DNA of 64,000 nucleotides from a virus. The stretch covers positions 1 to 64,000 of the IMG/VR virus record IMGVR_UViG_3300046820_001584. One strand, written 5' to 3'. A program made the translations under genes and the position numbers. Under the pieces are notes generated by a model that searched no databases, had not been told where the DNA came from, and worked only from the letters and a program-made list of their open reading frames with translations. Positions 2,236-60,716 of the stretch are shown in pieces (positions within the stretch are counted from its first letter, which is position 1; each line of letters begins with the position of its first letter).

Positions 2236-2823
2236 ATGGAAAAAGTATACCTAGACGAAAATATATTTTATATAAATGACTTTTTATCGGAGCCATCTTT
2301 TAATTCATTTCTAGAAATGTGCGCTGAGTATGATAGTGAATTTATATATAAAGAAGACTTTTTTTTAAATCGTGGGTCTTTTAATATGTACGAACTCGAA
2401 ATGAAAGAATCCCACAAAATTGCATGGGAAGAGCTTACAGAAAAGCTAGAGAGTCTTTTCAACAACGACATACACAGCGTTGGCAAAAGAATGTCTCTCA
2501 CTAAATTTAAAAAATACGATCCAATTGAAAACAATAAAGATTTGTCCTTTGGAAGACATTCAGATGACTATGGGTTTATTAATGAGTCTAGCGGCGTAGA
2601 GTCTAACATAACTGCCATCTTTTTAGGATTAAACTACTACATTAACGATGACTATGAGGGTGGGGAAATATGTTATCCTCAAAAGAATATAAGAATAAAA
2701 CCTAAGCGTAATTCTATCTTATGTCATCCTGGCTCAAAAGAATACGAGCATGAGGTGACACAGATTTTTAACGCTGACAAATACACCTTCCCCTGTTTTG
2801 CAATAAATAATAATCTATTTTGA
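2236..2823 (+). CDS. 2OG-Fe(II) oxygenase (prolyl 4-hydroxylase-like)
   Basis: The only supported plus-strand gene in the window, 195 residues. It carries the double-stranded beta-helix iron site: His108 and Asp110 (GRHSDDYGF) and His172 (YEHEV). The core strand YYINDDYEGGEI recurs almost unchanged in the other phage oxygenases here. The 2OG-anchoring Arg after the last His is not evident; Lys182 occupies a similar place. The family hydroxylates peptidyl proline or other substrates using Fe(II), O2 and 2-oxoglutarate. It converges with the cupin gene at 2815, overlapping it tail to tail by about 9 bases. Confidence 0.85.
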   Translation: MEKVYLDENIFYINDFLSEPSFNSFLEMCAEYDSEFIYKEDFFLNRGSFNMYELEMKESHKIAWEELTEKLESLFNNDIHSVGKRMSLTKFKKYDPIENNKDLSFGRHSDDYGFINESSGVESNITAIFLGLNYYINDDYEGGEICYPQKNIRIKPKRNSILCHPGSKEYEHEVTQIFNADKYTFPCFAINNNLF

Positions 2824-3462
2824 GTTAGGGTGACTTATTATATCAAATATGCATGTTGACCTTATGGATGAGTTATCTAAAGCATGTATTGTTCCATATG
2901 GCAAGAATAGCATATCGTTTTTTTCTAAAATATATTCTTTAAAGTCTCTACCGACTGTGTCTATCTCAGACTCAAATGGGTCTGTATCCCTTGGCTCATA
3001 AATAAAATACTTTGAGTCACCTATTGCTTGCGTTAAAAGTACATGATGTCTGTCTTTGTGTGGTATAACTTTAGGACTGTTTTCAGCTAAATTGATTGAA
3101 AATTTTACATGAACAGAATAATAGATATCGGCATAAAGTCCTGCATCCTCTAAATCCCTTTTTATTCTTTTAACTTGATCATATTTTTTAGAATCTAGTT
3201 TGTTTTCTGCGTGTAGTAAATCTTGTGTATGAAAGGATACTGGTTGTTTTGAAGGAGTGCTTAGTCTAGAAAGCTTTTTATGCTTACTATTAAACACTTG
3301 AAGACCTTTATTGGATTCTGCAATCTCTTCACCATAAACAGTGTTATATGAAATACTAATTACATTGACCATATCTTCCCAATTAAAATCATAGTCCATA
3401 TATGACTTTATAAATAGTGGAGTTTTTGTGGCTATTGAATCTTTAATATTATCTATTAACAC
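2815..3462 (-). CDS. Cupin/JmjC-like 2OG oxygenase
   Basis: 215 residues from the GTG at 3462. This start was chosen because AGGAG lies 5 nt upstream and the upstream gene stops at 3464; an ATG at 3516 would overlap that gene by 53 bases. Residues 131-195 resemble the Cupin_4/JmjC iron site: His135-x-Asp137 (VIPHKDRHHVLL) and His193 (LPYGTIHAL), with a YFIYEP strand between. Known relatives hydroxylate protein side chains such as ribosomal residues. The substrate here is unknown. It lies among other oxygenases and small accessory genes. Confidence 0.7.
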   Translation of the reverse strand: MLIDNIKDSIATKTPLFIKSYMDYDFNWEDMVNVISISYNTVYGEEIAESNKGLQVFNSKHKKLSRLSTPSKQPVSFHTQDLLHAENKLDSKKYDQVKRIKRDLEDAGLYADIYYSVHVKFSINLAENSPKVIPHKDRHHVLLTQAIGDSKYFIYEPRDTDPFESEIDTVGRDFKEYILEKNDMLFLPYGTIHALDNSSIRSTCIFDIISHPNSK

Positions 3463-3463
3463 C

Positions 3464-3652
3464 TTAGCTCCTGTTATCCGTTTTATAAAAACCATTGCCT
3501 TTAAACTGTATACCAAATGGACTAAAGTGTCTTACCATTTGTGCTTCACATTCTTCACACTGGTACCCTGGATCATCTTCAGAGATGGAACGTGTAACAG
3601 CGAGTAATGCGTGTGATTCGTCTAATTTACACTTGTACTCATATACTGGCAT
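3464..3652 (-). CDS. FmdB-type zinc-ribbon protein
   Basis: 62 residues beginning MPVYEYKC, the signature of the FmdB/CxxC_CxxC regulatory zinc-ribbon family. Metal-binding cysteines are C8 and the CxxC of YQCEECEAQM. In many FmdB proteins the first knuckle is CxxC; here it is C followed by KLDESH, so His14 may serve. Function is unclear for the whole family; a nucleic-acid or regulatory role is usually proposed. It is one base upstream of the GTG of the cupin gene, and its ATG overlaps the stop of the DUF2061 gene. Confidence 0.8.
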   Translation of the reverse strand: MPVYEYKCKLDESHALLAVTRSISEDDPGYQCEECEAQMVRHFSPFGIQFKGNGFYKTDNRS

Positions 3653-3855
3653 TATTTTCTACCCCATTGAATATAGTTCCATCCACGCTCATGTGCATAG
3701 TATAGAATAAAGTTAATTGTATTTGTCAATACCGTGACTTTTAGCGCAGCAATCTCTTCACCAGTGATCCAAAAAGCAGACACAAAAGTAGTTATTAGTG
3801 CAACTACTCTCCATGTCAATGACTTAATTAGTGATCTTGATTTAGAAACTATCAC
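3652..3855 (-). CDS. DUF2061 small membrane protein
   Basis: 67 residues from GTG 3855, which overlaps the preceding stop as GTGA (coupled start). A longer reading from ATG 3927 would overlap the neighbour by 76 bases and adds an unconserved-looking tail. The body matches DUF2061: KSLTWRVVALITTFVSAFWITG, a central helix, then NFILYYAHERGWNYIQWG at the end. Two hydrophobic segments predict an inner-membrane protein. DUF2061 proteins occur in bacteria and aquatic phages without known function. Confidence 0.75.
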   Translation of the reverse strand: MIVSKSRSLIKSLTWRVVALITTFVSAFWITGEEIAALKVTVLTNTINFILYYAHERGWNYIQWGRK

Positions 3856-4136
3856 GAAAGGATCTCTGGTCCTGGCCCAGTTTGAATTGATGCCCTTGTT
3901 CCGTGCCAATAAATTCTTCCATCGCAAGCCATATTCATTTTCTGATCATCGTCTACAACGCTTGACTCACCATATGTATACCCATGGATTTCAATGTGGC
4001 TGGCAAACATTTCTTCTCCATCAACTATAATTCTCCACTTTAGTGGACCACCATTATTTTTGGTATTATATCTAATCTGAAAATGTTGGTTTGGTTTAAA
4101 GAACCAAGACTTAAATTTATCCAGCATATCTGTCAT
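3852..4136 (-). CDS. Hypothetical protein
   Basis: 94 residues, no membrane segment, family not recognised. It is rich in aromatic and polar residues (KSWFFKPNQHFQIRYN, GGPLKWRIIVDGEE, GRIYWHG), consistent with a small beta-sheet protein. It is coupled to the gene before it (20-base overlap with the DUF6356 gene) and to the gene after it (GTGA), so it belongs to one operon with the DUF6356, DUF2061 and FmdB genes. Confidence 0.6.
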   Translation of the reverse strand: MTDMLDKFKSWFFKPNQHFQIRYNTKNNGGPLKWRIIVDGEEMFASHIEIHGYTYGESSVVDDDQKMNMACDGRIYWHGTRASIQTGPGPEILS

Positions 4137-4308
4137 CCGTTCTTTTAAGTGTTTTTCTTATTATAGAAGACGCTGTTGTTTTAAATGCAAATGGCAAAAA
4201 TGCATGAACTAAACATGCAATAGCAGCCTTTAGCAAAGAAAACACTATAAGCATGGCCTCATACAGGTGAGTAAAGTAATTTTCTTTCATGCTTTTGAGA
4301 TGGCTCAT
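4117..4308 (-). CDS. DUF6356 family protein
   Basis: 63 residues. The pattern SMKENYFTHLYEAM, a hydrophobic helix VFSLLKAAIACLVHA, then FLPFAFKTTAS matches DUF6356 (SYxxHxxxA ... HAxxPxxFxTTxS). One membrane-associated helix is likely. The family has no known function. It starts with ATG overlapping the stop of the APS-kinase fusion gene (ATGA), so it is translated with it. Confidence 0.72.
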   Translation of the reverse strand: MSHLKSMKENYFTHLYEAMLIVFSLLKAAIACLVHAFLPFAFKTTASSIIRKTLKRTDDRYAG

Positions 4309-5066
4309 ATACCCATCTCCTTACGCTTTTGCGTAGCAGAAATAGCATGAATGTCTGCCCCCAAGTCTACTTGTTCAATCTTATATCCAACATCTCTGCC
4401 ATATACAATGTTGGTAATGTTAGGTAGTCTTAGTACTAATGCACCGTCCATAAATTCATCTTTAGCAATATATTCTTTAACCTGATCAAACGTCAATGGA
4501 TCCTTCTCGCTAGTCTTATAAGTGTTTCTGACTCCAAGAAGCACCTGCTTTGTTCTACTCCCCGCCTTTTGATAAAGAGCATGGTGTCCTTCATGCCATG
4601 GTTGGTATCGACCAAGCATTAATGTAGTAGGTGCTGACCAATCATGCAGATTAAAGTATTGAATAATTACTGTAGCTTTTTGGTCTTGATCTAGCTTATG
4701 ATCTTCAAATGTTGCATCAAATTCTGTAGGACGCTCAAACATTTTGTTTGTGTCTTCAAATCGGCTCTCTTCAATTGTATCCATAAAAATTAAAATGTCT
4801 GGCTTACCAAATGCTGCACGTGTAAGTTCGGTTGGGCACACAAAGTCAACAATGACTGGCGCTACACCTTGCTTAGAAATTAGACGTGCCATCTCGCCCA
4901 TTCGTCTTGATTGCTCTAGTCTGTCATCTGGAGTAAATCCTAAATCAGAGTTTACCGTAGCTCTTACTTCATCAGCATTAAGATGTATTGCATTAATACG
5001 CTCTTTTAATGCTTTTGCTAGTTCTGTCTTTCCTGAGCCTGGTAGCCCAATAATCTGAATAATCAT
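4305..5066 (-). CDS. Bifunctional APS kinase-like / nucleotidyltransferase fusion
   Basis: 253 residues with two domains. Residues 1-about 125 form a P-loop kinase (Walker A GLPGSGKT, 7-14; HLNADEVR 28-35), like adenylylsulfate kinase/CysC. Residues about 145-253 form an HxGH-superfamily nucleotidyltransferase: LGRYQPWHEGH (151-161) with His158 and His161, and the C-terminal ISATQKR (242-248) matching ISxTxxR. Candidates are an NMN adenylyltransferase-like or cytidylyltransferase-like activity. The biochemical product is not deducible. AAGGAG lies just upstream of the ATG. Confidence 0.78.
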   Translation of the reverse strand: MIIQIIGLPGSGKTELAKALKERINAIHLNADEVRATVNSDLGFTPDDRLEQSRRMGEMARLISKQGVAPVIVDFVCPTELTRAAFGKPDILIFMDTIEESRFEDTNKMFERPTEFDATFEDHKLDQDQKATVIIQYFNLHDWSAPTTLMLGRYQPWHEGHHALYQKAGSRTKQVLLGVRNTYKTSEKDPLTFDQVKEYIAKDEFMDGALVLRLPNITNIVYGRDVGYKIEQVDLGADIHAISATQKRKEMGI

Positions 5067-5162
5067 AATACTCCTTAGTTAGTGAGCCTTTTAAACACAT
5101 GCCCAGGTGCAAACTGTACGCTTCCTACATATCCCGATGTCCACCGACGTACAGAATGTTAT

Positions 5163-5570
5163 TTATTTTTTAGACTTTGATCTTGCTTTAGCAAGTGCTT
5201 CAAAATCCTTTACTTTTGTATCGCCAAGGTATCCCCAAGCATATCCGTCATCAATCATCTTCTGATTTAACGAAACGGGTGAGTTGTCTAAAAATACCCA
5301 CCCTAAAATTCTTCCATACTTTTCAGAACTATCCATTTTTTCAGTTTTGATTACAACTGTTTTTGCAGAATCAATCTGAGTTTTTACGTAAGCTTTTGCC
5401 TCAAGGCCAAGAGCCTTTTCTGCTTTGTCTGTTGTTCTACTTTCTGGAGTGTCTATTCCAGAAAGTCTTACTCTAGAACTAAAACATATATCAAAGCCTA
5501 GGTCAATGTCAACATCTATGGTGTCTCCATCAACTACTTTAGTTACTTTTTTAACATAGTATTCAAACAT
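5163..5570 (-). CDS. Staphylococcal nuclease-like (thermonuclease) protein
   Basis: 135 residues of a single SNase OB-fold domain. It has VVDGDTIDVDIDLGF with Asp21, RVRLSGIDTPES with Arg35, Asp40 and Glu43, and KYGRILGWVF with Arg87, equivalent to the calcium-binding and two-arginine catalytic site. The family cleaves DNA and RNA. No signal peptide, so it acts in the cytoplasm, for example on host nucleic acid or in repair. Its ATG overlaps the TAA of the upstream IMPDH-like gene (TAATG). Confidence 0.85.
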   Translation of the reverse strand: MFEYYVKKVTKVVDGDTIDVDIDLGFDICFSSRVRLSGIDTPESRTTDKAEKALGLEAKAYVKTQIDSAKTVVIKTEKMDSSEKYGRILGWVFLDNSPVSLNQKMIDDGYAWGYLGDTKVKDFEALAKARSKSKK

Positions 5571-6568
5571 TATATCCTACTTCCTGATTCTTTTAGAGAT
5601 TGTGGCGAGACCTCTATGTATTGCAAATTATTTTGAAGCTCTTTAATATTCTCTGCGCCAGAATAAGTAAATGCACTTTTGGTATTGTTTAATATATTCC
5701 ATAGTCCTTCAAAAGCTGGCCCTCTGGATTCAATCTTTCCAGCAACGCCTTCAAAATTAAATATAGGATTTTTTACATCAGATATTCCTTCTTCTCTAGC
5801 AGCAAACTCTCTTGACCCCAAACCTATTAATGAATACTCACCGTTTTCTGATGTGCATTCATCATGTCCAGCTAACATATAGCCAAGCATTACGGCGCTT
5901 GCTCCAGCTCCTAAAGCCTTTACTATGTCCCCAGATGTTTTAATGCCACCATCTGCAATGATGCCATTGACCTCGTCATCTTTTACCATTTCATAGATGT
6001 TCATTATAGAAGAAAGAGTTGGTGCACCAAAGCCAGTCATTATTCGGGTAGTGCATGCTGCACCTCCTCCAATTCCAACTCTCACTGAGTCACATCCAGC
6101 ATCCATAAGCATTTTGTATGCGCCATAGGAAGATACGTTTCCGCACATAATATGTGTTGATCTAGGAACAATTTTTCTTAAATGAGATATTGCATCAGCA
6201 ACTAATTTTAGGTGGCCATTAGCAACATCCAGTAATATTATCTTGATATTACTTTTTATGATTTTATTAATAGCCTCTTCATTATAAACATCTTTTACTT
6301 TTATTGTAACAGCAACTCTTTTTGGATTAACCTCTAAAGACTTTTTAATTTTTAAATCTAGTAAGTCAGTTCTAACCGTTGTTCCTATACACCCAGAAGT
6401 TACTAAAATGGAAAGCATTTCTCTTGAAGAAATTGACTCCATTGGAGCAGAAATTATTGGAGACTCAAATTCTATAATTGCTTCTGGGTTATTAGGATTA
6501 CCTATTTTGGTTGTTAGATCTATATGAGATCTACTCAACAACGGAGAAGAGTCATTGGGCAACAGCAA
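5570..6568 (-). CDS. IMP dehydrogenase / GMP reductase family enzyme
   Basis: TIM-barrel enzyme of purine nucleotide interconversion. The catalytic cysteine loop is at about 166-175 (GIGGGAACTTR, Cys172), and the phosphate-binding ADGGIKTSGD follows at about 205. It has no CBS module, so its length (332) is closer to GMP reductase, but the motifs do not settle which reaction. The first canonical start is TTG 6568, yet the family N-terminus (GLCFDDILLLPN) is encoded in frame upstream with no ATG, GTG or TTG before a stop. An ATT at 6613, just after the endolysin stop and preceded by AAGAAG, may be the true start. Confidence 0.85.
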   Translation of the reverse strand: MLLPNDSSPLLSRSHIDLTTKIGNPNNPEAIIEFESPIISAPMESISSREMLSILVTSGCIGTTVRTDLLDLKIKKSLEVNPKRVAVTIKVKDVYNEEAINKIIKSNIKIILLDVANGHLKLVADAISHLRKIVPRSTHIMCGNVSSYGAYKMLMDAGCDSVRVGIGGGAACTTRIMTGFGAPTLSSIMNIYEMVKDDEVNGIIADGGIKTSGDIVKALGAGASAVMLGYMLAGHDECTSENGEYSLIGLGSREFAAREEGISDVKNPIFNFEGVAGKIESRGPAFEGLWNILNNTKSAFTYSGAENIKELQNNLQYIEVSPQSLKESGSRI

Positions 6569-6617
6569 GATATCGTCAAAGCATAGCCCATTGACAGAAG
6601 TATTCTTTTTAATTTTA

Positions 6618-7211
6618 TTACTTCTTTTTTACTGTTGTTGGCTTTGCTGCGGCCTTCTTGACCACTGGCTTTTCTACCTTTGGCTTAACTGCTTGTCCAA
6701 ATTTTGGTCGTCCAAATCCTACAATGCCTACAATCTGGCTTTTACGAAGCTTTGATCCATTCTTCTTCTTGTATGCACGATTCTTAAGACAGCATTCTCC
6801 GCCATTTCTCTGATCGCCTTTCTTATCTGAAGATGTATTTCCTTCTACAACATCTACTGTGCCATCTGTATTAACACCAACAACAATTCCTACGTGAGAA
6901 ATTCTGTCTACTCCGTCTGATGGGAAATCAAAATAAGCAATATCTCCGACTTCTGGTGTTGCTACTTCCGCCATCTGCCATGTTCCTGCCTTAATAAATG
7001 CTTGTGCTCCTGCTGGTGTATATACTGTATTAGGAACTTTTACTCCTGCTTGATCTGCACACCACATAACAAATGATCCGCACCATGGTTGAAAGTTTGA
7101 CTTTGTAAACTTACCATACTTTGTTTCATTATCTTTCGGTCCTTCAATAGTTCCAACTTCTGCTAGCGCTACCTCTACTAGTCTTGCTGCTGATCCCTGT
7201 ACTGCTGCCAT
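6618..7211 (-). CDS. CHAP-domain endolysin
   Basis: 197 residues. CHAP amidase/endopeptidase domain in residues about 10-130: catalytic Cys44 in FQPWCGSFVMWCAD, His106 in SHVGIVVG, and VVEGNTSS with Glu123/Asn125. These enzymes cleave peptidoglycan amide bonds. The C-terminal 30 residues are Lys/Pro/Ala-rich (VEKPVVKKAAAKP), a basic tail that may bind the wall. No signal peptide, so a holin would be needed; none is identified with confidence. A ribosome site (AAGGAG) and a TGC-TATAAT promoter lie upstream. Confidence 0.88.
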   Translation of the reverse strand: MAAVQGSAARLVEVALAEVGTIEGPKDNETKYGKFTKSNFQPWCGSFVMWCADQAGVKVPNTVYTPAGAQAFIKAGTWQMAEVATPEVGDIAYFDFPSDGVDRISHVGIVVGVNTDGTVDVVEGNTSSDKKGDQRNGGECCLKNRAYKKKNGSKLRKSQIVGIVGFGRPKFGQAVKPKVEKPVVKKAAAKPTTVKKK

Positions 7212-7243
7212 TTTATTCTCCTTTTGGTATATCTATTTCTATC

Positions 7244-7249
7244 ATTATA
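7244..7249 (-). promoter_or_regulatory. Extended -10 promoter for the endolysin
   Basis: The minus strand has TGC followed by TATAAT (7249..7244), about 33 bases before the endolysin ATG, leaving a leader of about 26 nt that carries AAGGAG. It lies between the tRNA-Arg and the endolysin. No strong -35 is seen. Confidence 0.5.
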
Positions 7250-7277
7250 GCATTTATGGTATTAAAAAAACATGCTG

Positions 7278-7350
7278 TGCCGTCGGCAGGAATCGAACCT
7301 GCGACCTACTGCTTAGAAGGCAGTTGCTCTATCCCCTGAGCTACGAAGGC
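7278..7350 (-). tRNA. tRNA-Arg (anticodon TCT)
   Basis: 73-nt cloverleaf on the minus strand. The acceptor GCCTTCG pairs with CGACGGC with one T-C mismatch. The D arm contains GCTCAGGGGATAGAGC. The anticodon stem ACTGC/GCAGT encloses loop CTTCTAA, giving anticodon TCT. The T arm is GCAGG-TTCGATT-CCTGC. CCA is not encoded. It reads AGA codons, which this AT-rich phage uses heavily. Confidence 0.92.
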
Positions 7351-7355
7351 TTTAT

Positions 7356-7955
7356 TTAAATAGCTGGTATTTTAAGCTCGGTAGAAAGAAAGTTAGAATA
7401 TGAATATCTGTATCCACGCAAAATTTTATTTACTCCGTGGATACAGTTTTCTTCTGCGCTGTGTATAACCATGTCACCTGGGTTTGGAGAATATGTTATA
7501 CCTTGGTTAGAATAGTAAAGCTCTCCTCCTTCTTCAACGCTGTTAAAATAGACAACTAATCCATATTTTGTATCCTGTACTATTTGGTAAGGCTCTCCAT
7601 CTTTTAATAATAAACTTAGTTTTCTTTTTTCAATAAAATCATGATTATCTGAATGCTGTCCCCAGCTATCTCCCTCACGCATAACATTTATAGATGTATT
7701 TGGGTGCAGAGAAAATGAAGACCCAATCAGAGACTTGGCTTTATCTAAAACGTTTTGCAGATCATCAAGTGGCACTGACACTCTATTCTCAAAAGGTGTG
7801 CCGACTAGGTCTGGCTGAAATAACGAGTTGTCTTTTACTTTATTAAAAACTTGAACTAAACTATTAATTTCTTCTTCTTTTAAAAAGTTTTTGTATACAT
7901 ATATGTCAGAGCCTATTTTATCAAAACCCTTTTCTATAAAATATTGATCATTCAT
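7356..7955 (-). CDS. 2OG-Fe(II) oxygenase (prolyl 4-hydroxylase-like)
   Basis: 199 residues. Iron ligands His101 and Asp103 (GQHSDNHDF) and His173 (NCIHGV), with Arg183 positioned to bind 2-oxoglutarate. The core strand YFNSVEEGGELYY replaces the NDDYEGGE seen in the others, so this copy is more diverged. It sits between the two tRNA genes with a good ribosome site (GGAGG, 5 nt spacing). It probably adds a hydroxyl to a peptidyl residue; the substrate is unknown. Confidence 0.85.
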   Translation of the reverse strand: MNDQYFIEKGFDKIGSDIYVYKNFLKEEEINSLVQVFNKVKDNSLFQPDLVGTPFENRVSVPLDDLQNVLDKAKSLIGSSFSLHPNTSINVMREGDSWGQHSDNHDFIEKRKLSLLLKDGEPYQIVQDTKYGLVVYFNSVEEGGELYYSNQGITYSPNPGDMVIHSAEENCIHGVNKILRGYRYSYSNFLSTELKIPAI

Positions 7956-7974
7956 TTTTGCCTCCTATTGTCCG

Positions 7975-8048
7975 TGTGCCAAGTAGGACTTGAACCTACG
8001 ATTACCGAATTATGAGTTCGGGGCTTTAACCAACTAAGCTATTGGCAC
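7975..8048 (-). tRNA. tRNA with CAT anticodon (Met or Ile2)
   Basis: 74-nt cloverleaf. The acceptor GTGCCAA pairs fully with TTGGCAC. The anticodon stem CCGAA/TTCGG encloses loop CTCATAA, giving anticodon CAT. The T arm is GTAGG-TTCAAGT-CCTAC. It lacks the initiator hallmark of three G-C pairs in the anticodon stem, so it is elongator Met or the Ile2 type whose C34 is modified to lysidine to read ATA. Sequence alone does not decide. Confidence 0.9.
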
Positions 8049-8057
8049 CTTAGCTTA

Positions 8058-8085
8058 ATTGTACTATATTACTCTGGGCTGTCAA
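8058..8085 (-). promoter_or_regulatory. Consensus promoter for the tRNA(CAT) transcript
   Basis: On the minus strand TTGACA (8085..8080), a 16-bp spacer and TACAAT (8063..8058). The tRNA begins 10 bases after the -10 box. It overlaps the 3' end of the small gene at 8069, and would drive the tRNA, the oxygenase, the second tRNA and possibly downstream genes. Confidence 0.65.
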
Positions 8086-10635: not shown

Positions 10636-10641
10636 TAAATA

Positions 10642-12845: not shown

Positions 12846-12951
12846 CTTTAATCCTCTTATCTATCTTGTCAACAAAAAGCCCAAGGCCGTATCCCAGGGA
12901 CAAACCAATCAAAAATGCAATAGAAGATACTACTAAGTAATCTTCAATCAT
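12835..12951 (-). CDS. 38-residue single-pass membrane peptide
   Basis: The ATG overlaps the preceding oxygenase stop as ATGA; the TGA lies 11 bases inside the following gene. Residues 5-27 (YLVVSSIAFLIGLSLGYGL and on) are a Gly-rich hydrophobic helix, followed by a charged tail KIDKRIKDGR. A one-pass membrane peptide of this shape could be a holin-like or membrane-anchoring factor; neither is shown. Confidence 0.55.
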   Translation of the reverse strand: MIEDYLVVSSIAFLIGLSLGYGLGLFVDKIDKRIKDGR

Positions 12952-13892
12952 TTATTATCTTCCCATACCTCTACTGTTTTGGGGAAAAATGGAATTCCAT
13001 TCCCGTGCTGTCTTTCATAAACAGAAACTCCTGGCAAGTAAACATCCTTTTGATATAACCCTAAAAGGTCTTCAGTCTCTCTAATGAGATCTTGCATTAC
13101 GTCCCACTGCTCTTTGCCAAACTTTTCTTGTCCTTCTTTATATCTATCTGATCCTGAATGTTGCCACAATAAAAAGTTTCTTATAAGATATTTATCTGTG
13201 CCATAAACTTTTTGAGCAGCATGAAAAAATGGTTTTGAAGAAGGGAATACTATAAGGTCTCCTTGCTTTGGCTTATAGGTTACAATACTGCTATCAAACT
13301 CATTTAAAAATGATATCTCTCCGCCTTCATAATCATCATTTAAATACACTGTCCCAGTTATAATTGATTTTGGACCAGCGGCATCCTTTGAGTTAAAGGC
13401 GTCTAAGTGATACCCAATTGCAAGCTCAAGACCTCTGCCGACAGTATGATCATGCTTTAATATTTCTACTGCGCCCTTAATCCAATAGTCTTTATCTGAC
13501 TCATTAGGAATTGCATCAAATCCTGACCAGTCAGTTACAAACTCTCCAAATACATACTTCCAGTCTTCATAAAAAGACCTGTTTGGGTTAATATGCTTTT
13601 CAATAATTTCTGGCTTAGCCCAATCTTCTATATAATCTTTATATGCAGCTATTAAGTTATTATATATATATTGTTGCAAACCTAGTTGATGTTTTTCTAT
13701 TTCTGATAAAGTGCCACCTCTGCTTGGCTCTAATCTTGTTCTTAATCCTAGTTCATACCATGGCTCCCACTCTTGAAGAATACTTGATGTATTTGAGTCC
13801 TTTAGCATTTGTAATATTTCTGGTGCGTTATCAAAAACACCACGATACAAAACTACAAACGGCATGATTGTTGTTTTATTGTACTGAGTCAT
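12948..13892 (-). CDS. 2OG-Fe(II) oxygenase (prolyl 4-hydroxylase-like)
   Basis: 314 residues, the longest of the set. Catalytic half at about 150-245: His162 and Asp164 (YHLDAF), the strand YLNDDYEGGEISF, GDLIVFPSSKPFFH with His224, and Arg238 (YLIRNF). The extra N-terminal 145 residues and C-terminal 70 residues are not recognised and may define the substrate. It is embedded in the replication region, coupled by ATGA to a small membrane peptide, and overlaps the upstream gene by about 17 bases. Confidence 0.88.
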   Translation of the reverse strand: MTQYNKTTIMPFVVLYRGVFDNAPEILQMLKDSNTSSILQEWEPWYELGLRTRLEPSRGGTLSEIEKHQLGLQQYIYNNLIAAYKDYIEDWAKPEIIEKHINPNRSFYEDWKYVFGEFVTDWSGFDAIPNESDKDYWIKGAVEILKHDHTVGRGLELAIGYHLDAFNSKDAAGPKSIITGTVYLNDDYEGGEISFLNEFDSSIVTYKPKQGDLIVFPSSKPFFHAAQKVYGTDKYLIRNFLLWQHSGSDRYKEGQEKFGKEQWDVMQDLIRETEDLLGLYQKDVYLPGVSVYERQHGNGIPFFPKTVEVWEDNK

Positions 13893-23944: not shown

Positions 23945-24526
23945 TTAATTAATCTTTATTTTGTTAATGAAATCAATATTTTTACTGTCTTCTTCAGATA
24001 GCAATGAGAAGTGGTTTAAGAATGTAATTCTTGAACCTGATGTAACAGTACGAACTCCGTGTGTTAAAAGGTGTCCAGGAAACAAAACTGCGTCTCCTAA
24101 CTCTACCTTTAGATCTACTCCTAGTTCTTCAAAATACAGCTCTCCGCCTTCACAGTCGGAAAGATATAGATTACATACAAGAGAATCTCCGTAGGTAAAG
24201 TCATGCTCTCTGCCAGAATTATAGTGGTCTTTGTGTGGCTCAAGACGTGCATCTTTATGCATTATTGTTCCATATGACCTAGTTAAAACAATTGATCTTC
24301 CCTCTGGCACATAATTTTCCATAAAGTATTGCTCGGCATATTTAATTAGATCAGATACTTTATTTTCTGGGTCTACTTTAGAGTAGTCTAAAGGTATACC
24401 CTGGAAATAGGAGAATGGGTGCTCTTCAGTTAAATTATTGTTATTGACATTGTCAATCATTTGCTGAGCATACTCTTTAGTAATTACGTTTTTAATTACT
24501 TTATAGTTAGGGTTTTCAGTATTCAT
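23945..24526 (-). CDS. 2OG-Fe(II) oxygenase (prolyl 4-hydroxylase-like)
   Basis: 193 residues. His98 and Asp100 (EPHKDHYN), the strand CNLYLSDCEGGELYFEE, LGDAVLFPGHLLTHGV with His156, and Arg166 for 2-oxoglutarate. All expected ligands are present. It lies at the head of the early region, downstream of the zinc-ribbon gene, with AAAGGA before ATG. The substrate is unknown. Confidence 0.87.
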   Translation of the reverse strand: MNTENPNYKVIKNVITKEYAQQMIDNVNNNNLTEEHPFSYFQGIPLDYSKVDPENKVSDLIKYAEQYFMENYVPEGRSIVLTRSYGTIMHKDARLEPHKDHYNSGREHDFTYGDSLVCNLYLSDCEGGELYFEELGVDLKVELGDAVLFPGHLLTHGVRTVTSGSRITFLNHFSLLSEEDSKNIDFINKIKIN

Positions 24527-48574: not shown

Positions 48575-48590
48575 TATAATTTCACCTACC

Positions 48591-53799: not shown

Positions 53800-53802
53800 G
53801 TC

Positions 53803-54915
53803 TTACTTCTCTTCTAGTGCTTTAACTCTCGCTGTAAGCTCTTGTACTGCTTTAATTAATGGAGCAATAAATTGGTCATATCTAAGTCCCTGCATAGAGT
53901 CTTCTTCTGACATATCCATTTTTACCCAGCCTGCAAAATCTGCAACTCCAGACTCATCTAAAACTGTTTTTACTTCTTGTGCAATAAGTCCATAGTGGGT
54001 TCTTGATCCAGGAATTGAAACAATATCTCCGTCTACTATTTCTTTTCCGCCTTCAATAAACTTATAGCTTACTGGATTTAGATTATTAATAAAATTAAGG
54101 CCTAGTTGAGATGATGTAATGTCAGTCTTTAGTCTTTGATCTGATGTATTAATAGTTCCAGTGTTTGAGTATATTGTTTTCCAAAATCTATTTGAGCTAA
54201 CTCCATTAGGAACGTCTGTTGGCTGACCAAGATTATAAAGGTTGTTTGCAATTGGATACCAGTTAGAGTTTACGCCAAATCCTGCTGAGGTTGGTATATT
54301 TAAACTTATTGTTGTTGGCACTGGATCTATAGTTGCGCTTGATCCAGGAATTCCTTGTGGTCCCGTGGCACCCGTGGCACCCGTGGCACCTCTTGGAATT
54401 GTAAATGCAAAAACGGCATTTGCAGACGTGCCAGTGTTGGTTACAGAAGCGCTTGTTCCAGCTGCACCTGTTGTAGTAGTTCCAATAGCTAGAGTGGTTG
54501 GACCCTGCGGGCCAGCGGGCCCTTGCGGACCCTGTGGACCTTGTGGTAAAACTAGATTTAATGTTTGCGATGGGCTGGTGCCAGTTATTGTTGCATTAGC
54601 TGAAGCTCCGCCAACAACGGTACCTATATTTAAAACATTAGAAGGGCCAGGCCCACCAATAATTCCATCAATACCTCTAGGCAATGTTAAGTTTAATATA
54701 GCATTAGAAGATGTTCCAACATTTGTAACTGCTGCTGGAGTACTTGCGCTAACGGTGGTTACTGTACCTATTGCTAAGGTGCCTGAAGGGCCCTGTGGGC
54801 CTGGATTAGCAGCAATGAAGGTTGCAATGTCAGCACCAAGGTTTCCAAGGTCTCTAGGGACGTCTGGGGTGTCTGTATAGTCTGGAAATCTCCAGCCGTT
54901 TACTCCTGTGCTCAT
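53803..54915 (-). CDS. Collagen-like tail fibre with S74 chaperone domain
   Basis: 370 residues. Three collagen-like Gly-Pro-Gln stretches (GPQGPSG; GPQGPQGPAGPQGP near 130-143; GATGATGATGPQGIPG) alternate with repeats (LAIGTVTTVSASTPAAVTN). The C-terminal S74 chaperone starts near residue 258: Ser258 and Lys263 (SDQRLKTDI), GLIAQEVK, and a terminal coiled coil. The mature fibre should be cut near 258. The ATG lies six bases after a TATAAT box. Proline in the X-Y positions makes it a candidate substrate for the hydroxylases encoded next door. Confidence 0.85.
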   Translation of the reverse strand: MSTGVNGWRFPDYTDTPDVPRDLGNLGADIATFIAANPGPQGPSGTLAIGTVTTVSASTPAAVTNVGTSSNAILNLTLPRGIDGIIGGPGPSNVLNIGTVVGGASANATITGTSPSQTLNLVLPQGPQGPQGPAGPQGPTTLAIGTTTTGAAGTSASVTNTGTSANAVFAFTIPRGATGATGATGPQGIPGSSATIDPVPTTISLNIPTSAGFGVNSNWYPIANNLYNLGQPTDVPNGVSSNRFWKTIYSNTGTINTSDQRLKTDITSSQLGLNFINNLNPVSYKFIEGGKEIVDGDIVSIPGSRTHYGLIAQEVKTVLDESGVADFAGWVKMDMSEEDSMQGLRYDQFIAPLIKAVQELTARVKALEEK

Positions 54916-54921
54916 TTTTTT

Positions 54922-54927
54922 ATTATA
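54922..54927 (-). promoter_or_regulatory. Leaderless -10 box for the collagen-like fibre
   Basis: TGG-TATAAT on the minus strand (54927..54922) followed by six A residues and the ATG at 54915. No Shine-Dalgarno is possible. No consensus -35 seen. Confidence 0.6.
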
Positions 54928-54935
54928 CCACCGAT

Positions 54936-55586
54936 CTACTTAATATATACGTGTGCTGGGCTCATATATCTGGTGCCAGAAATAATTGGCTTTACTTCAT
55001 GAATATATGGCTCCTGCGAAGGAAACATTATCATGCTTCCAGCCTTTGGCTTAACGGTAACATTGTGATTTGGAAAGCTAATTTCTCCGCCTTCGTAGTC
55101 GTCGTTTATATATGCTACCAAAGAAAATGCTAGATCTGCATTACCATCTTGTCCGTCAAAATGTGGACCCATAGACTGTCCTTCATTCCAAGCCTTAATA
55201 GTGGTGTTATCTAAATTTAAATTATATTTACTTTTATCTAGCTTGTGTCCTTCTAGGTATCTATCGGTACACATTTCAAATGCCATTAGAAAGCTATTTG
55301 CTATATACAAAGTTTTTTTATCTACCACATCTGATCCAGTAGATTCTTTTAACTTAGACTTATTAATATTTTTCGTTTTCCCGTAAATTAATTCTTTGTC
55401 GTCGCTTGCTGTCCAATTTTCCCATTTAGATATTCTAGAATAAGACTGTGGCTCTTCATCAATTTTGTCAATAAATACTTTTAGCTCTTCTGGAAAACTT
55501 AATGCATTTTCCCAGTACCAAATTTGTGGTCCAAGAACCTTAAGGTCAAACATTATAAATTGTTTAAACTCAATATTGTTTTGCAT
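54936..55586 (-). CDS. 2OG-Fe(II) oxygenase (prolyl 4-hydroxylase-like)
   Basis: 216 residues. His142 and Asp144 (GPHFDGQD), the strand LVAYINDDYEGGEISF, GSMIMFPSQEPYIH with His196, and Arg206. Complete active site. It is the last gene of the oxygenase operon, next to the collagen-like fibre promoter. Its ATG overlaps the previous stop (TAATG). Confidence 0.88.
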   Translation of the reverse strand: MQNNIEFKQFIMFDLKVLGPQIWYWENALSFPEELKVFIDKIDEEPQSYSRISKWENWTASDDKELIYGKTKNINKSKLKESTGSDVVDKKTLYIANSFLMAFEMCTDRYLEGHKLDKSKYNLNLDNTTIKAWNEGQSMGPHFDGQDGNADLAFSLVAYINDDYEGGEISFPNHNVTVKPKAGSMIMFPSQEPYIHEVKPIISGTRYMSPAHVYIK

Positions 55587-56335
55587 TATTCTACTTCCTT
55601 GGCTGGATATTTTTCTCCAGTTGCAGTAATACGTAGTCCTTGATTACGAATTTCTTCCCATTCGACAGCTTCTGTTTTTTGATATGCTCTTACTTCAGCA
55701 AGCTCAGCTGCCCAAGCGTCTCTTACTTCTTGTGGATAGTCTGATTCTTCTCTGTCATCCCAAAAAGATCCAAGGGTATATCTAATTGCTTTCTTTACGG
55801 TTGTAACTTCATGAGTATTTTCAAATCCACCCGCAAATGTAGCCATGCTTCCAGTCTTTGGAATAATTGTTAATCCGTGCTTAAAATTTAAAACTCCGTC
55901 TTCAAAGTCATCATTTAAGTAAATAAATGTTGCGTATCTGCTTCTTGTAAATGCACCAGAGTTTCCGTCATTGTCTGTGTTATCTGAATGCATATTTGCA
56001 AATGCGCCAGGTGCCCATCTCTGAGAGTGCCAACTAATTTGTGACATTTGCTCAGGATTTTTACCAGCCATATCGGCTGTTGCGTCAATTACTCTTTGTC
56101 TTAGTACTTGAAAAAAATCTCCTGGCAATCCGCAAGCAATTGTATCTGGATCATTGACTTCTGGCATACCAGATGAATATGATTCATAGAAAGAAATAGG
56201 CATCCACTTCAATTCTTCTTTTTGCATTTTTATGTCTAGGACTTTAATAATTGCAGCGCACTCTTCTGGAGTCAAGAAATTGTCATATACAACTATATCT
56301 GATTTATGTCTTGTTACAACCATGTCTCTTTCCAT
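55586..56335 (-). CDS. 2OG-Fe(II) oxygenase (prolyl 4-hydroxylase-like)
   Basis: 249 residues. His116 and Asp118 (NMHSDNTDNDG), TFIYLNDDFEDGVLNF, GSMATFAGGFENTH with His175, and Arg185. The C-terminal 60 residues (ESDYPQEVRDAWAAELAEV) are extra and helical. Part of the operon: TAATG at both ends. The variant EDG in place of EGG distinguishes it. Confidence 0.87.
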   Translation of the reverse strand: MERDMVVTRHKSDIVVYDNFLTPEECAAIIKVLDIKMQKEELKWMPISFYESYSSGMPEVNDPDTIACGLPGDFFQVLRQRVIDATADMAGKNPEQMSQISWHSQRWAPGAFANMHSDNTDNDGNSGAFTRSRYATFIYLNDDFEDGVLNFKHGLTIIPKTGSMATFAGGFENTHEVTTVKKAIRYTLGSFWDDREESDYPQEVRDAWAAELAEVRAYQKTEAVEWEEIRNQGLRITATGEKYPAKEVE

Positions 56336-57150
56336 TATTCATTTTCTCCCTTTATATTAGCAAGATCATCGTAAAGTGTTGGTACACCATTTTCCAAATA
56401 TCTCATGTTTCTTGGATCTTCGTATTTAATTCTTTCCGCTTCCATTTGAGCCCATTTATATGCACCATAAGTTTTTTGATTATTTAGCCATTCTTTTGTT
56501 CCATCGAACGGTGTCATAACAAAGTTTCTTACAAAAAACTTTTCGTTATTTTCAATAGTTTTAACTCCGTGGTAGTATGGCTCTGTAGATGGAAATACTA
56601 AAATATCTCCAGAAACTGGCTTATGATTAATAAGCTTGCCGTCTACAAAAAATTCAATATCTCCTCCATCATAATCGTCATTTATATACATAGTACATGT
56701 TATTGAAAACTTGTCTCCAGGCATATCTTTTTGAGACGTTATGTGGTCTGTATGATACTGCATTGTCATTTTATTATCTAGAGTGTTAATTTGTGGATTA
56801 TACTTTGAATAAGAGCATCCGCTAAATCTCCAGCCTTCTGGCAAATCAATATTGTGTCTTTCTACGTAGTCCATTAAAACTGCATGATAGGCAGCCTCAA
56901 CTTCTTCTACAAAATTCTTTTCTTTAATAAACATTTCATCTGACTGCTGATCATCAGATATCTCCATTGGATTCTTTTTTTGTGTATAAGTGCCAAAGTG
57001 TGCCCATGGATCCCATGTCTTTAAAAAATGCTTGCCCTCTGAAGTTTTTTCAGACTCTTTCATTACTTCGTACATTTTTTGTGGATCAGTAAGAACATCT
57101 CTGTAAACTTCTACATTTGGATAAATCTCTATATAGTTTAATTTGCTCAT
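56335..57150 (-). CDS. 2OG-Fe(II) oxygenase (prolyl 4-hydroxylase-like)
   Basis: 271 residues. His133 and Asp135 (QYHTDHITS), TMYINDDYDGGDIEFF, GDILVFPSTEPYYH with His194, and Arg208 (VRNF). The C-terminal half adds a helical extension. It overlaps the neighbours by TAATG and by ATGA. Confidence 0.88.
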   Translation of the reverse strand: MSKLNYIEIYPNVEVYRDVLTDPQKMYEVMKESEKTSEGKHFLKTWDPWAHFGTYTQKKNPMEISDDQQSDEMFIKEKNFVEEVEAAYHAVLMDYVERHNIDLPEGWRFSGCSYSKYNPQINTLDNKMTMQYHTDHITSQKDMPGDKFSITCTMYINDDYDGGDIEFFVDGKLINHKPVSGDILVFPSTEPYYHGVKTIENNEKFFVRNFVMTPFDGTKEWLNNQKTYGAYKWAQMEAERIKYEDPRNMRYLENGVPTLYDDLANIKGENE

Positions 57151-57821
57151 GGTTGTCTTTCTCCTGTATGCTTAGATATCGTCCAAAAGAATGGAGATGT
57201 AAATCGATTGCCAGATTTTACTGGTCTTACCCCGTGAGTATAATACATGTCTCCTGGGAAAAAATATGCTGCTCCTGCAACTGGCTGAAATTCAATTCCA
57301 TGTTGTGGGAAATAAAGCTCTCCACCTTCATAGTCATCGTTAAAATAAAAAAGTCCTGCTAAATCGTACCAAGGGAAATCATTTGGTCTGCCTTTTTCTG
57401 GGCCAGAATGAAATTCTTTATCTGCATGAGGTTCTTGTCTTGCGCCAATTGGCCATTTAACAATTGCTGGACCAGTTTCTTTTGCATCAACGTCAAAAAA
57501 TTTATCTACTTCGATCTTTAGTCTGTCAATCATGCTGTAAATAAGTTCTAATATTGTTGGGTCTGAAGCCCGTAAAGAATTTATAGTGCATACTCTGTCT
57601 TCCCAAACTTTATGGTCATACAGCACAAGCCCGTCTTCGTCAACGTGTGTTTCTGTCACATCCCAAATTTTATTAGAAAGGGCAAAATCCATTAATCTTT
57701 TTCTTTCTTCTAATGAAAGAAAGTCTTTAATTTCTACAATGTTATCTATGGAATTGCCAAAAAATCCAGAGGGTGTAATAGATACTGGTCTGTTGTCATG
57801 CCATTCGTTTTGAGGTTTCAT
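57147..57821 (-). CDS. 2OG-Fe(II) oxygenase (prolyl 4-hydroxylase-like)
   Basis: 224 residues. His132 and Asp134 (EPHADKEFH), FYFNDDYEGGELYFPQ, AAYFFPGDMYYTH with His196, and Arg206. The ATG has AGAAG upstream, 51 bases after the DUF6065 stop, so a weak internal promoter (TGG-TAAAAT) is possible here. Confidence 0.88.
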   Translation of the reverse strand: MKPQNEWHDNRPVSITPSGFFGNSIDNIVEIKDFLSLEERKRLMDFALSNKIWDVTETHVDEDGLVLYDHKVWEDRVCTINSLRASDPTILELIYSMIDRLKIEVDKFFDVDAKETGPAIVKWPIGARQEPHADKEFHSGPEKGRPNDFPWYDLAGLFYFNDDYEGGELYFPQHGIEFQPVAGAAYFFPGDMYYTHGVRPVKSGNRFTSPFFWTISKHTGERQP

Positions 57822-57872
57822 TTTATCTTCTTCCCTTGGTAATTAATTTTACCATATTGTCGTTTATAATCT

Positions 57873-58583
57873 TTATTCTTCTTTATTCTTTTGGTTTACG
57901 CTTAGTCTTAATGCTTTTACCTGATGCTTGCCGATGGCATTTTTTAAATGATCTACCGCATCTCTGTAGAAATTAGACCATACTCCAGACCTATTTAAAT
58001 CGTAAATTATCTCAGAATATTTGTCTGAATCAAACTGGCTAGCTGGCATAGTAGACATTGGCTCAAAATTTATTTCTGACCCTTGAAGTGAGGCTAAGTC
58101 AATTGGCAAGATGGCTATAATTGGAGTTCCAGCCTTTATTGTTAAAATTTCATTTGGCTTAGTAATCATCCAGGCTACTGGAAGCTCACCTCTAAAAAAA
58201 GAAGTACTAATTAAAGTTGTAAATGGCACAGCGCCATCAAAAAAGAAATTTGGAACTGGCATAGAAAGAAGACTTAAGTTTTCTTCTGTTTTAAACATAA
58301 GCCCAGTATTAAAGCTTATAGTGCCATTTGCTCTTCCTGAATATGCATACTTTTCGCCAGATAAAATTTTAACATGATCTGGACTTGCATCGCTTACTCC
58401 ATCCCAAATAAAGCTTATGTCTTCTGGGAATGATATAGCCCATCCAAGCTGGTTTGTTAATCCCACTGGAAAACATTTATATGCATGTGCTTCCCAGGTG
58501 TCGTCCATCCATTTTCTTTTTATGGAAAGAGGTTCGACTATTCCGTATCCGTCTCTTATTTCCCAAGCCTTTATATTATGCAT
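57873..58583 (-). CDS. DUF6065 family protein
   Basis: 236 residues matching DUF6065: AHAYKCFPVGLTNQLGWAI, FPEDISFIWDG, then FRGELPVAWMITKPNEILTI, and a conserved LPIDL. The function is unknown. It lies inside the oxygenase operon, overlapping the first oxygenase by 8 bases, so it may act on the same substrate or provide a partner step. Confidence 0.75.
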   Translation of the reverse strand: MHNIKAWEIRDGYGIVEPLSIKRKWMDDTWEAHAYKCFPVGLTNQLGWAISFPEDISFIWDGVSDASPDHVKILSGEKYAYSGRANGTISFNTGLMFKTEENLSLLSMPVPNFFFDGAVPFTTLISTSFFRGELPVAWMITKPNEILTIKAGTPIIAILPIDLASLQGSEINFEPMSTMPASQFDSDKYSEIIYDLNRSGVWSNFYRDAVDHLKNAIGKHQVKALRLSVNQKNKEE

Positions 58584-59289
58584 ATGGGTTTTTGCCAGTT
58601 TTGGCGTCTTCCTCTACCCACTTAGATCTCATTTCCATAAACTCTTGTCTGTGTTGATGATCGTTATAATCTAGCATTGTAACAATTGAAAATTTCATTC
58701 CAGATTTTACTGGCATTGCTCTATGAGAGAATAAATATGTTGATGGGAATATGTATAGGTCTCCAGCTTGTGGCTTAATGTCAAGACCTATCTTTGGAAA
58801 ATATAAATTCCCGCCTTCATAATCATCGTTAACGTAAGCTACAAGGGAGACGGTGGCGCTGTAAGAAAATCCATGATCTGCGTGTTCTTGAAAGTGTTGA
58901 CCTTCCCCATAACGAATACAGTTCATAACTTCCCAGTAATTCATTTTTACGTTGTGTTTCGAACAATAATCTTCTACTGCTGGATTTTGAGACTTTTTTA
59001 GGTCTTGCCATAAACTAGAAACTAATTTTTCTGTTTCTGTTCTTGGGTTTGGAATGTCTCCAACTTTAATGTCTTCACAATCTCTATAGTCTGGTCTTTT
59101 TTCGCTGTATCCAACAAAACCAAATGTCCATAAAAATCTAGAGTCGTTGTCTTTAATTGCCGACTCACCAATTTCATTAAGTCTTTCAATAACATTTAAC
59201 TCTTTTTTAATTGCATTTCTATAAACCCAAACTCCTGGGAAAAGCTCTTCTTTTGAAGAAAATTTATATTTATCATTAATGTTATTCAT
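58576..59289 (-). CDS. 2OG-Fe(II) oxygenase (prolyl 4-hydroxylase-like)
   Basis: 237 residues. His136 and Asp138 (EHADHGF), VAYVNDDYEGGNLYFPK, GDLYIFPSTYLFSH with His189; Lys199 sits where Arg usually anchors 2-oxoglutarate, which some P4H-like enzymes allow. It is the first gene of the operon. The ATG lies 7 bases after TATAAT, so it is probably leaderless. Confidence 0.87.
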   Translation of the reverse strand: MNNINDKYKFSSKEELFPGVWVYRNAIKKELNVIERLNEIGESAIKDNDSRFLWTFGFVGYSEKRPDYRDCEDIKVGDIPNPRTETEKLVSSLWQDLKKSQNPAVEDYCSKHNVKMNYWEVMNCIRYGEGQHFQEHADHGFSYSATVSLVAYVNDDYEGGNLYFPKIGLDIKPQAGDLYIFPSTYLFSHRAMPVKSGMKFSIVTMLDYNDHQHRQEFMEMRSKWVEEDAKTGKNPYA

Positions 59290-59296
59290 AATATTT

Positions 59297-59326
59297 ATTA
59301 TAGCATTTAAAAATTCATATTGTCAA
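59297..59326 (-). promoter_or_regulatory. Consensus promoter for the oxygenase operon
   Basis: TTGACA (59326..59321), 18-bp spacer, TGC-TATAAT (59302..59297) on the minus strand, then seven bases to ATG 59289. It follows a terminator, so the oxygenase operon has its own, probably leaderless, transcript. Confidence 0.75.
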
Positions 59327-59332
59327 TAAGAA

Positions 59333-59355
59333 AGGGAGCAGATTGACTGCTCCCT
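59333..59355 (-). terminator. Intrinsic terminator after the Hint protein gene
   Basis: A 9-bp stem AGGGAGCAG/CTGCTCCCT with a 5-base loop, followed on the minus strand by TTCTTATT. It ends the structural transcript, and the oxygenase promoter starts immediately after. Confidence 0.75.
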
Positions 59356-59375
59356 CTCTTATTTTACGCTTATTT

Positions 59376-60716
59376 CTAGTTTCTAATTATGAACGATTGT
59401 CCTAGAACTAGAACGTCTGGGTCAGTGAAGAATCTATATACTATAGAGGCATCTTCTACTGTATCAATTGACTCTACTGCTAAGTACTTAATATCTTCGT
59501 CAGATCTATAAACTATCTGATCTCCAATTTGCATATCCGCTGGGGTTACAAATTTATAAGTATTTCCTCTAAGTGCTAGAATTTCTTCTTGCAACGAGAA
59601 TCTTGCAGTGGCATCATTATTAACCATGAATGTCTTGTTTTGCAATGTGGCTTGTATTGAGAATATCTTTGACTCAATTACCTTTGAATTACCAAGATGT
59701 GTATCTTCCCATGTTGCTGGGTCGTACTCACCTTCATTTGGCAACTTATCAAATGATAAGCTTATTAGAATATCTCCAATTTTTATATCTTTAGCCATCT
59801 TGTAGCCTGTAGATGTAAGTATTAAAGTGTCTTCATTTATGCAACCAAATCTTGGCGGTGCAAAGAAGCCAGGTGGGAAGAACGGTGGCGCAAAGAAGTT
59901 AGGTGGGAAGAACGGTGGGAAGAATGGTGGGAAGAACGGTGGGAAGAACGGTGGCGCAAAGAAGTTAGGTGGGAAGAACGGTGGCGCAAAGAAGCCAGGT
60001 GGGAAGAACGGTGGCGCAAAGAATGCGGGTGGGAAGAACGGTGGCGCAAAGAAGCCAGGTGGGAAGAACGGTGGCGCAAAGAAGCCAGGTGGGAAGAACG
60101 GTGGGAAGAACGGTGCCTGAGTTGTAATAGTTGCTGTATTAGCTGAGGCTGCTGAACGTCCATTAGCATTGTCTGCATAAACATTGTAATACTGTGATGT
60201 ATTAGCGGCGTCATCAATTGTTGTAGATAACCCTGTTACATTGTCTCTGCTTGTTCCATCATTACCAGCTACAAAATACTTGGTGATTGCTTTTCCACCA
60301 TTTGCTGGAGCTGCCCATGAAATTGTATTCTGGTTAACGCCTGGAGTTGCTGATGGGCTTGTTGGAGCACTTGGAACTGTTGTTGCTGTAACAGCAGAAG
60401 CTGCTACTGCATTTGAATTGCTATCAAGGAAGCCATCATAAGATGATACTGAGAAAGTATAAGATGTTCCTCCTGATAATCCAGTTATTGTAGCGGTATT
60501 TGTGCCAAATGCAACTGTAGCTTTTACTGTTGCGCCGTCATATACCTTGTAACCAGTTGGCGTATTACCATCAACTGGTGCTGTCCAAGATACTGTTACA
60601 GCACCGTCATTAAATGCTCTGTTGGTACCAATATCAGATGCCGTGACACCTGTTACTGGATTTGGTCCAATAAAGTTATCTTGGGCGGAAGATTTTCTAC
60701 CTATATTTTTTGACAT
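59376..60716 (-). CDS. Fibronectin III / proline-repeat / Hint-domain protein
   Basis: 446 residues. Two fibronectin III domains (about 18-113 and 115-200). Residues 202-289 are a Phe/Pro/Gly/Ala repeat, unit FFPPGFFAPP with G, A or N at the fifth place. Residues 291-446 resemble a Hint (Hedgehog/intein) domain: Cys292 followed by INEDTLILTSTGYKMAKDIK and IGDIL, then a C-terminal FIIRN with the last residue Asn446. No extein follows. The block-B T-x-x-H is not visible (NNDATARF instead), so self-cleavage is uncertain. No signal peptide. It lies before the terminator and the oxygenase operon. Confidence 0.8.
   Translation of the reverse strand: MSKNIGRKSSAQDNFIGPNPVTGVTASDIGTNRAFNDGAVTVSWTAPVDGNTPTGYKVYDGATVKATVAFGTNTATITGLSGGTSYTFSVSSYDGFLDSNSNAVAASAVTATTVPSAPTSPSATPGVNQNTISWAAPANGGKAITKYFVAGNDGTSRDNVTGLSTTIDDAANTSQYYNVYADNANGRSAASANTATITTQAPFFPPFFPPGFFAPPFFPPGFFAPPFFPPAFFAPPFFPPGFFAPPFFPPNFFAPPFFPPFFPPFFPPFFPPNFFAPPFFPPGFFAPPRFGCINEDTLILTSTGYKMAKDIKIGDILISLSFDKLPNEGEYDPATWEDTHLGNSKVIESKIFSIQATLQNKTFMVNNDATARFSLQEEILALRGNTYKFVTPADMQIGDQIVYRSDEDIKYLAVESIDTVEDASIVYRFFTDPDVLVLGQSFIIRN
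59853..60110 (-). repeat. Tandem repeat encoding FFPPxFFAPP
   Basis: A 30-bp unit (plus strand ggtgggaagaacggtggcgcaaagaag with variants) recurs with shorter FFPP units inside. It encodes about 88 residues of Phe/Pro repeat, extremely hydrophobic and polyproline-like. Nearly identical codons suggest expansion by slippage. Confidence 0.88.

Follow-up and report, generated by a model that had tools for sequence, protein, structure and literature searches.

The window analysed here, bases 1-64000 of a linear IMG/VR virus record of 85,740 bases (IMGVR_UViG_3300046820_001584), contains an unusually large set of genes for enzymes resembling prolyl 4-hydroxylases (P4Hs), five of which form an array beside the gene for a Phe-Pro repeat protein, and the locus raises the question of which proteins such enzymes of an uncultured phage would modify. 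An earlier note on this DNA had proposed self-modification of the surface proteins of the phage. On the evidence of gene linkage, conservation and predicted fold we lean towards the array, together with a DUF6065 protein encoded inside it, being a protein-tailoring module that hydroxylates prolines of the phage's own FFxPP/FFPP segments.

Array, repeat protein and their linkage

The locus reads in the following order on the minus strand, with genes named hereafter by their lower coordinate:

59376..60716, minus strand: FN3-FN3-(FFPP/FFAPP) repeat-Hint-like protein of 446 residues, proposed main substrate
59297..59355, minus strand: intergenic GC-rich hairpin (59333-59355), then predicted promoter, a perfect TTGACA-18-TATAAT (59326-59297)
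58576..59289, minus strand: P4H-like oxygenase, array position 1 (HAD...H...K)
57873..58583, minus strand: DUF6065 (PF19541) protein inside the array, predicted dUTPase-like fold
57147..57821, minus strand: P4H-like oxygenase, array position 2 (HAD...H...R)
56335..57150, minus strand: P4H-like oxygenase, array position 3 (HTD...H...K)
55586..56335, minus strand: P4H-like oxygenase, array position 4 (HSD...H...R)
54936..55586, minus strand: P4H-like oxygenase, array position 5 (HFD...H...R)
53803..54915, minus strand: collagen-like (GPQ-type) fibre with C-terminal Peptidase_S74 chaperone, 14 triplets in runs of at least three, possible second substrate

The array (54936-59289) is operon-like, most neighbours overlapping by 1-8 bases, and the order of FFPP protein, P4H, DUF6065, further P4Hs and collagen-like fibre is seen again in most of the 80 loci retrieved with 58576 as the query. 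In a 284-sequence tree (quick method, SH-aLRT support) the five array members fall in separate, well-supported clades by position, and the HxD..H..R/K site is kept in 105/108, 159/163, 120/120, 216/220 and 115/121 of their respective relatives (95-100%). Pairwise dN/dS of the five enzymes ranges from 0.01 to 0.29, being below 0.3 in all comparisons, with dS saturated in some of them. By these measures the array members appear to represent old, position-specific clades under purifying selection, with which the earlier suggestion of different substrates for different paralogues is consistent.

Regarding the repeat protein, residues 203-288 of 59376 hold 36 Pro and 36 Phe in 86 residues, in agreement with its previous description as a Phe-Pro repeat protein with a Hint-like part. 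Hint/intein autoprocessing would call for an N-terminal Cys nucleophile and a C-terminal His-Asn; a Cys follows the repeat (CINEDT...), the protein ends in ...FIIRN and Pfam gives no Hint match; the Hint-like part resembles a protein of Phage NCTB labelled 'tail protein, contains intein domain'.

Since any locus retrieved by way of a P4H contains one by necessity, the search for linkage was started from the repeat itself, using FFxPPxFFxPP as the query in IMG/VR and the collagen pattern GPQGPQGP as the control. Among the matches listed, to which all linkage counts refer, and in the stretch of DNA covered around each, a P4H-like gene was present in 89/109 in-frame FFxPPxFFxPP loci, in 56 of these within 150 bp, and in 5/117 GPQGPQGP loci. 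For whole records, PF13640 (2OG-FeII_Oxy_3, with 2OG standing for 2-oxoglutarate) was detected in 49/50 of those with the FFxPP repeat vs 10/50 of those with GPQGPQGP. In a post hoc out-of-register control, the repeat pattern one base short gave a single match in 2.9 million contigs, compared with at least 120 for the pattern in register. In cellular genomes the FFxPP pattern was scattered over unrelated genomes, with 35/80 matches in open frames of at least 100 codons, mostly antisense or low-complexity in appearance, and this line was rejected.

The window-type portal is present in 29/50 repeat records. Long records such as G022, G028, G030 and G045 are without it and share genes that include a weakly predicted tail sheath; in these sheath-type records a divergent P4H, a P4H, DUF6065 and a P4H lie around the cassette, with a PASTA-like FFxPP protein beside it where recognised. 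Judged from sequence, the FFxPP-P4H-DUF6065-P4H unit occurs on two phage backbones that appear unrelated. The repeat has several types of carrier, namely FN3 proteins, a long 'IFDGSSW' protein and short proteins of PASTA-like type; within them it mostly lies close to the C-terminus or precedes a terminal part that is Hint-like, Cys-rich or S74.

Two carrier proteins of one phage can share both the FFxPP repeat and the C-terminal tail (L103, L112, L114 and other loci), tail identity averaging 46% within a phage and 13% between phages (9 distinct pairs), which suggests gene conversion or co-assembly.

Between the FFPP gene and the array, the TTGACA-18-TATAAT element, a perfect match to the sigma-70 consensus with its -10 box about 7 bases before the ATG of the first array P4H, is predicted to be a near-leaderless promoter for the array. 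A hairpin and a -10-like box were seen by eye at the same place in most close relatives, and the strict pattern was found in 5/26.

Predicted folds and the oxygenase inventory

Among the P4H-like genes the fold test covers 58576, the AlphaFold2 model of which (pLDDT 94.3) has a double-stranded beta-helix fold. In the PDB this model is closest to Chlamydomonas P4H-1, the best fold match, including its (Ser-Pro)5 complex, and the other closest structures are PHD2-HIF complexes, the P. putida P4H-EF-Tu complex, vCPH of PBCV-1 and B. anthracis P4H. A profile search with 58576 yields mostly those same P4H/PHD2 families, and AlkB-like folds gave one marginal sequence match (E 0.097). By fold and gene linkage the array enzymes are putative peptidyl-prolyl hydroxylases.

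The DUF6065 gene, unlisted in the earlier note, adjoins a P4H in 172/175 copies, most of them from loci that had been selected for a P4H or for the repeat. The best PDB matches of its model (pLDDT 93.8) are dUTPases (E 2.5e-4; TMt mostly 0.6-0.7 and TMq about 0.4, a modest coverage), and a profile-sequence match to the dUTPase of WSSV (Wsv112) has an E value of 0.14. A dUTPase-like fold is predicted on this basis; the conserved columns W25, C37, P39, G47, N112 and P154 differ from the five catalytic dUTPase motifs, and those motifs were not recognisable by eye. A literature search returned no papers on DUF6065, and searches of phage records with the window and sheath-phage versions as queries gave 0 matches. 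A distant DUF6065-like protein is encoded by haloarchaeal tailed viruses (HF1, HRTV), with no P4H detected beside the gene in HF1. On a marine contig (L173, 7310-8637) two long collagen-like proteins, one of them with 50 Y-position prolines, are followed by a DUF6065-like gene and a P4H.

Over its full length the record has 12 P4H-like and 2 JmjC genes, of which 9 and 1, respectively, lie in the window, where all ten oxygenase open reading frames (ORFs) named previously are present. Those outside the array are:

2236..2823, plus strand: solitary P4H-like oxygenase, adjoining a short-chain dehydrogenase gene and overlapping the 3' end of the JmjC gene
2815..3516, minus strand: JmjC_2 (PF08007) oxygenase-like protein, of a family distinct from the P4H-like genes
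7356..7955, minus strand: solitary P4H-like oxygenase upstream of the terminase, flanked by tRNA-Arg and tRNA-Met
12948..13892, minus strand: solitary P4H-like oxygenase, grouping with the clade of array position 3
23945..24526, minus strand: solitary divergent P4H-like oxygenase (phrog_61/274)

Alignment confirmed the HxD...H...R/K site in 9/9 window P4H-like genes, and the site is intact in 11/12 of those in the record. The NDDYEGGE-like strand ascribed to all nine is clear in 6/9 and takes variant forms in 7356 (NSVEEGGE), 23945 (LSDCEGGE) and 55586 (NDDFEDGV). At the protein level PF13640 matches 8/9 of the window genes, namely 12948, 54936, 55586, 56335, 57147 and 58576 above the cut-off of 27 bits and 2236 (26.3 bits) and 7356 (26.7 bits) just below it; 23945 has no Pfam match and is matched by the 2OG families phrog_61 and phrog_274. 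The JmjC-like gene claimed at 2815 gave a profile match to JmjC_2. Beyond the window lie further P4H-like genes at 76631-77491, 77475-78044 and 79190-79885, together with a second JmjC_2 gene at 80067-80636 (profile match). The P4H-like gene at 77475-78044 has lost HxD and is a possible pseudo-enzyme. A P4H of the 7356 type is kept near the terminase in relatives.

The closest relatives of the phage are Streptomyces phages of the Stanwilliamsviridae (terminase about 61-65% and portal about 55-59% identical), from which we infer an actinobacterial host for this uncultured phage of actinobacterial type. BillNye, StarPlatinum and Patelgo have in common with the window record the order of ribonucleotide reductase (RNR), endolysin, one long gene, a small gene, portal, protease, major capsid and tape measure, but lack its stretch of about 19 kb with fibre genes and P4H array, which in the window record occupies the interval from the RNR (about 72.9 kb) to the pre-portal gene (about 53.8 kb). 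DUF6065 is absent from 5/5 Streptomyces relatives tested, and PF13640 has 0 matches in six complete Streptomyces isolates of about 130 kb each. Nine PF13640 matches in the one 85.7-kb record against none in these six related isolates are not due to chance, and a related 106.7-kb record has 15. The oxygenase expansion is real and unusual, and was understated previously.

Candidate substrates and alternative explanations

Under the reading favoured here, the P4H-type enzymes, with Fe(II), O2 and 2-oxoglutarate, would hydroxylate prolines of aromatic-diproline (FFxPP/FFPP) segments, which lie at the C-termini of tail-region structural proteins or close to them. Hydroxyproline would be the putative product, and each paralogue would differ from the others in the proline, register or carrier on which it acts; a possible second target is the collagen-like S74 fibre encoded next to the array. 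DUF6065, with its predicted dUTPase-like and possibly trimeric fold, may take part without catalytic activity, as partner or presenter; in the virion, the fibre tips may become stiffer or more soluble, or binding to the host may change. The FFxPP repeat is the best-supported substrate because of the repeat-first linkage, the second backbone, the conserved clades and the peptidyl-prolyl-hydroxylase-like predicted fold. The gene linkage is strong and suggests, without proving, that phages chemically modify their own fibres.

The oxygenases might instead hydroxylate host proteins (EF-Tu, ribosomal proteins, regulators) for host takeover, their site beside the fibre genes being a mere late-module insertion site, and this would fit the set of closest solved structures, which includes the P4Hs of P. 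putida and B. anthracis with EF-Tu, the location of 2236, 7356, 12948 and 23945 outside the structural genes, and the presence of JmjC_2, the family of ribosomal oxygenases. It leaves unexplained the repeat-first linkage, the next-gene adjacency and the occurrence of the same unit in a second phage backbone, and we regard it as unlikely. A main role of the array in stabilising the collagen-like S74 fibre by collagen-type 4-hydroxylation would agree with the place of that fibre directly after the array in the window and close relatives, with the 2OG oxygenase near collagen-repeat proteins in cyanophages and with the two collagen-like proteins adjoining a DUF6065-like gene and a P4H on the marine contig; moreover, the P4H of B. 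anthracis accepts prolines at X and not just at Y (PMC8968730), which makes the fibre a possible target. However, 53803, found to be a collagen-like S74 fibre as described before, has short Gly-X-Y runs (Pfam Collagen 13.6 bits, below the cut-off of 27.2) with its prolines in X, and Y-position Pro occurs in 1/14 triplets of this protein and in 56/748 triplets of relatives. Furthermore, no collagen-like neighbour was detected in L142, L143, L145, L146 and L150, which retain 6-7 array genes; P4Hs are rare in collagen-repeat phages taken as a set, and bacterial collagens fold without hydroxyproline. Collagen was rejected as the main substrate on the scarce Y-position Pro and the GPQGPQGP control, and a chiefly fibre-stabilising array seems quite improbable.

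Action of the oxygenases on nucleic acid or small molecules, or a mere drawing down of 2-oxoglutarate, has been given some ground by a proposal that the 2OG-Fe(II) enzymes of cyanophages serve in DNA repair and in the control of 2OG (PMC3037559) and by PHROG labels such as DNA endonuclease or ferrochelatase. With peptidyl-prolyl hydroxylases as the closest folds and AlkB-like ones represented by the marginal match alone, and with five separately conserved clades that would be odd for a 2OG sink, we give this the slightest probability of the three. Several points also weigh against FFxPP hydroxylation by the array. The repeat-protein gene and the array seem to be transcribed separately, which fits coupling and does not demand it; the linkage counts are not independent trials because many loci are related; and the linkage could reflect a fibre-module hot spot. 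Bacterial P4H-fold enzymes also modify host EF-Tu, and in the part of cyanophage Syn10 that was read a 2OG array occurs with no FFxPP. In addition, a chlorovirus P4H of unknown role acts on Pro peptides, and hydroxyproline was not detected in purified virions (PMC7019647).

Concerning the other surface proteins of the original proposal, the secreted PA14 protein with EPTPQPQP/PAEEP is present as described, cut by the contig start, and was rejected as a substrate: the relatives read (three full-length copies; a fourth is cut off) share the N-terminal part without the Pro repeat, and no oxygenase was found beside them in the 1.9-4 kb read. Self-modification of surface proteins is supported for the FFPP repeat by the repeat-first linkage on two apparently unrelated backbones, finds no support for the EPTPQPQP protein, and is weakly supported for the collagen-like fibre, with its X-position Pro and with collagen-repeat phages mostly without P4H. 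Stabilisation of a collagen helix, with one Y-position Pro in 14 triplets, is weak, and hydroxylated prolines as attachment points for glycans found no support, no glycosyltransferase being recognised among the part of the ORFs that was scanned; cyanophages place a glycosyltransferase between the collagen-repeat protein and the 2OG oxygenase.

Other targets are probable for the solitary oxygenases that lie elsewhere in the genome. Some adjoin a TylF-type methyltransferase (record 78541-79188) and a short-chain dehydrogenase (window 1558-2205), neighbours that might indicate that those enzymes act on sugars or small molecules.

Comparison with known systems

2OG-Fe(II) oxygenases are widespread in phages and are usually filed as metabolic genes with unknown substrates; repeat-first linkage to one sequence motif turns this open substrate question into a testable peptide assay. 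If the proposed reading is true, phages do hydroxyproline chemistry on their own structural proteins, the array paralogues could show how P4H specificity diversifies, and DUF6065 would be a new protein partner.

A viral P4H with proline-repeat proteins is of a kind already known. The 2OG-Fe(II) oxygenases of T4-like cyanophages (phrog_61; ACG-2014f, S-CAM7, Syn10) belong to the same Pfam family as the window enzymes, with a best identity of 27-39% to a window enzyme, and a survey of 16 cyanophage genomes found up to five genes of the superfamily per genome (PMC3037559). In ACG-2014f and S-CAM7 they have collagen-repeat proteins, a glycosyltransferase and a tail fibre in their vicinity. In Syn10 (L557) and P-TIM40 (L555) a DUF6065-like gene directly follows two tryptophan-halogenase-type genes, and in Syn10, from which a halogenase, VirX1, has been characterised on non-natural substrates, a mixed 2OG/JmjC array comes after it, near structural-type genes. 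The cyanophage sets differ from the window array in their mixed families and in that no FFxPP repeat was seen in the stretches read.

The vCPH of PBCV-1 is likewise a small virus-encoded P4H among the closest solved structures to 58576, but it belongs to a eukaryotic virus in whose virions no hydroxyproline was found, and is one enzyme rather than an array. Chlamydomonas P4H-1 naturally acts on Pro-rich repeats, and algal and plant P4Hs serve hydroxyproline-rich cell-wall proteins; that enzyme differs in being eukaryotic and secretory, and the phage repeats are Phe/Pro, not Ser/Pro. A wider reading, which we put forward tentatively and hold to be somewhat short of probable, is that a dedicated phage protein-hydroxylation system, a multi-P4H array with a dUTPase-fold partner, makes the aromatic-diproline tails of the fibres hydroxyproline-rich as a counterpart of the algal and plant hydroxyproline-rich proteins, and that DUF6065-like proteins are the marker of a broader class of clusters for oxidative protein tailoring in phages, one to which the cyanophage halogenases also belong.

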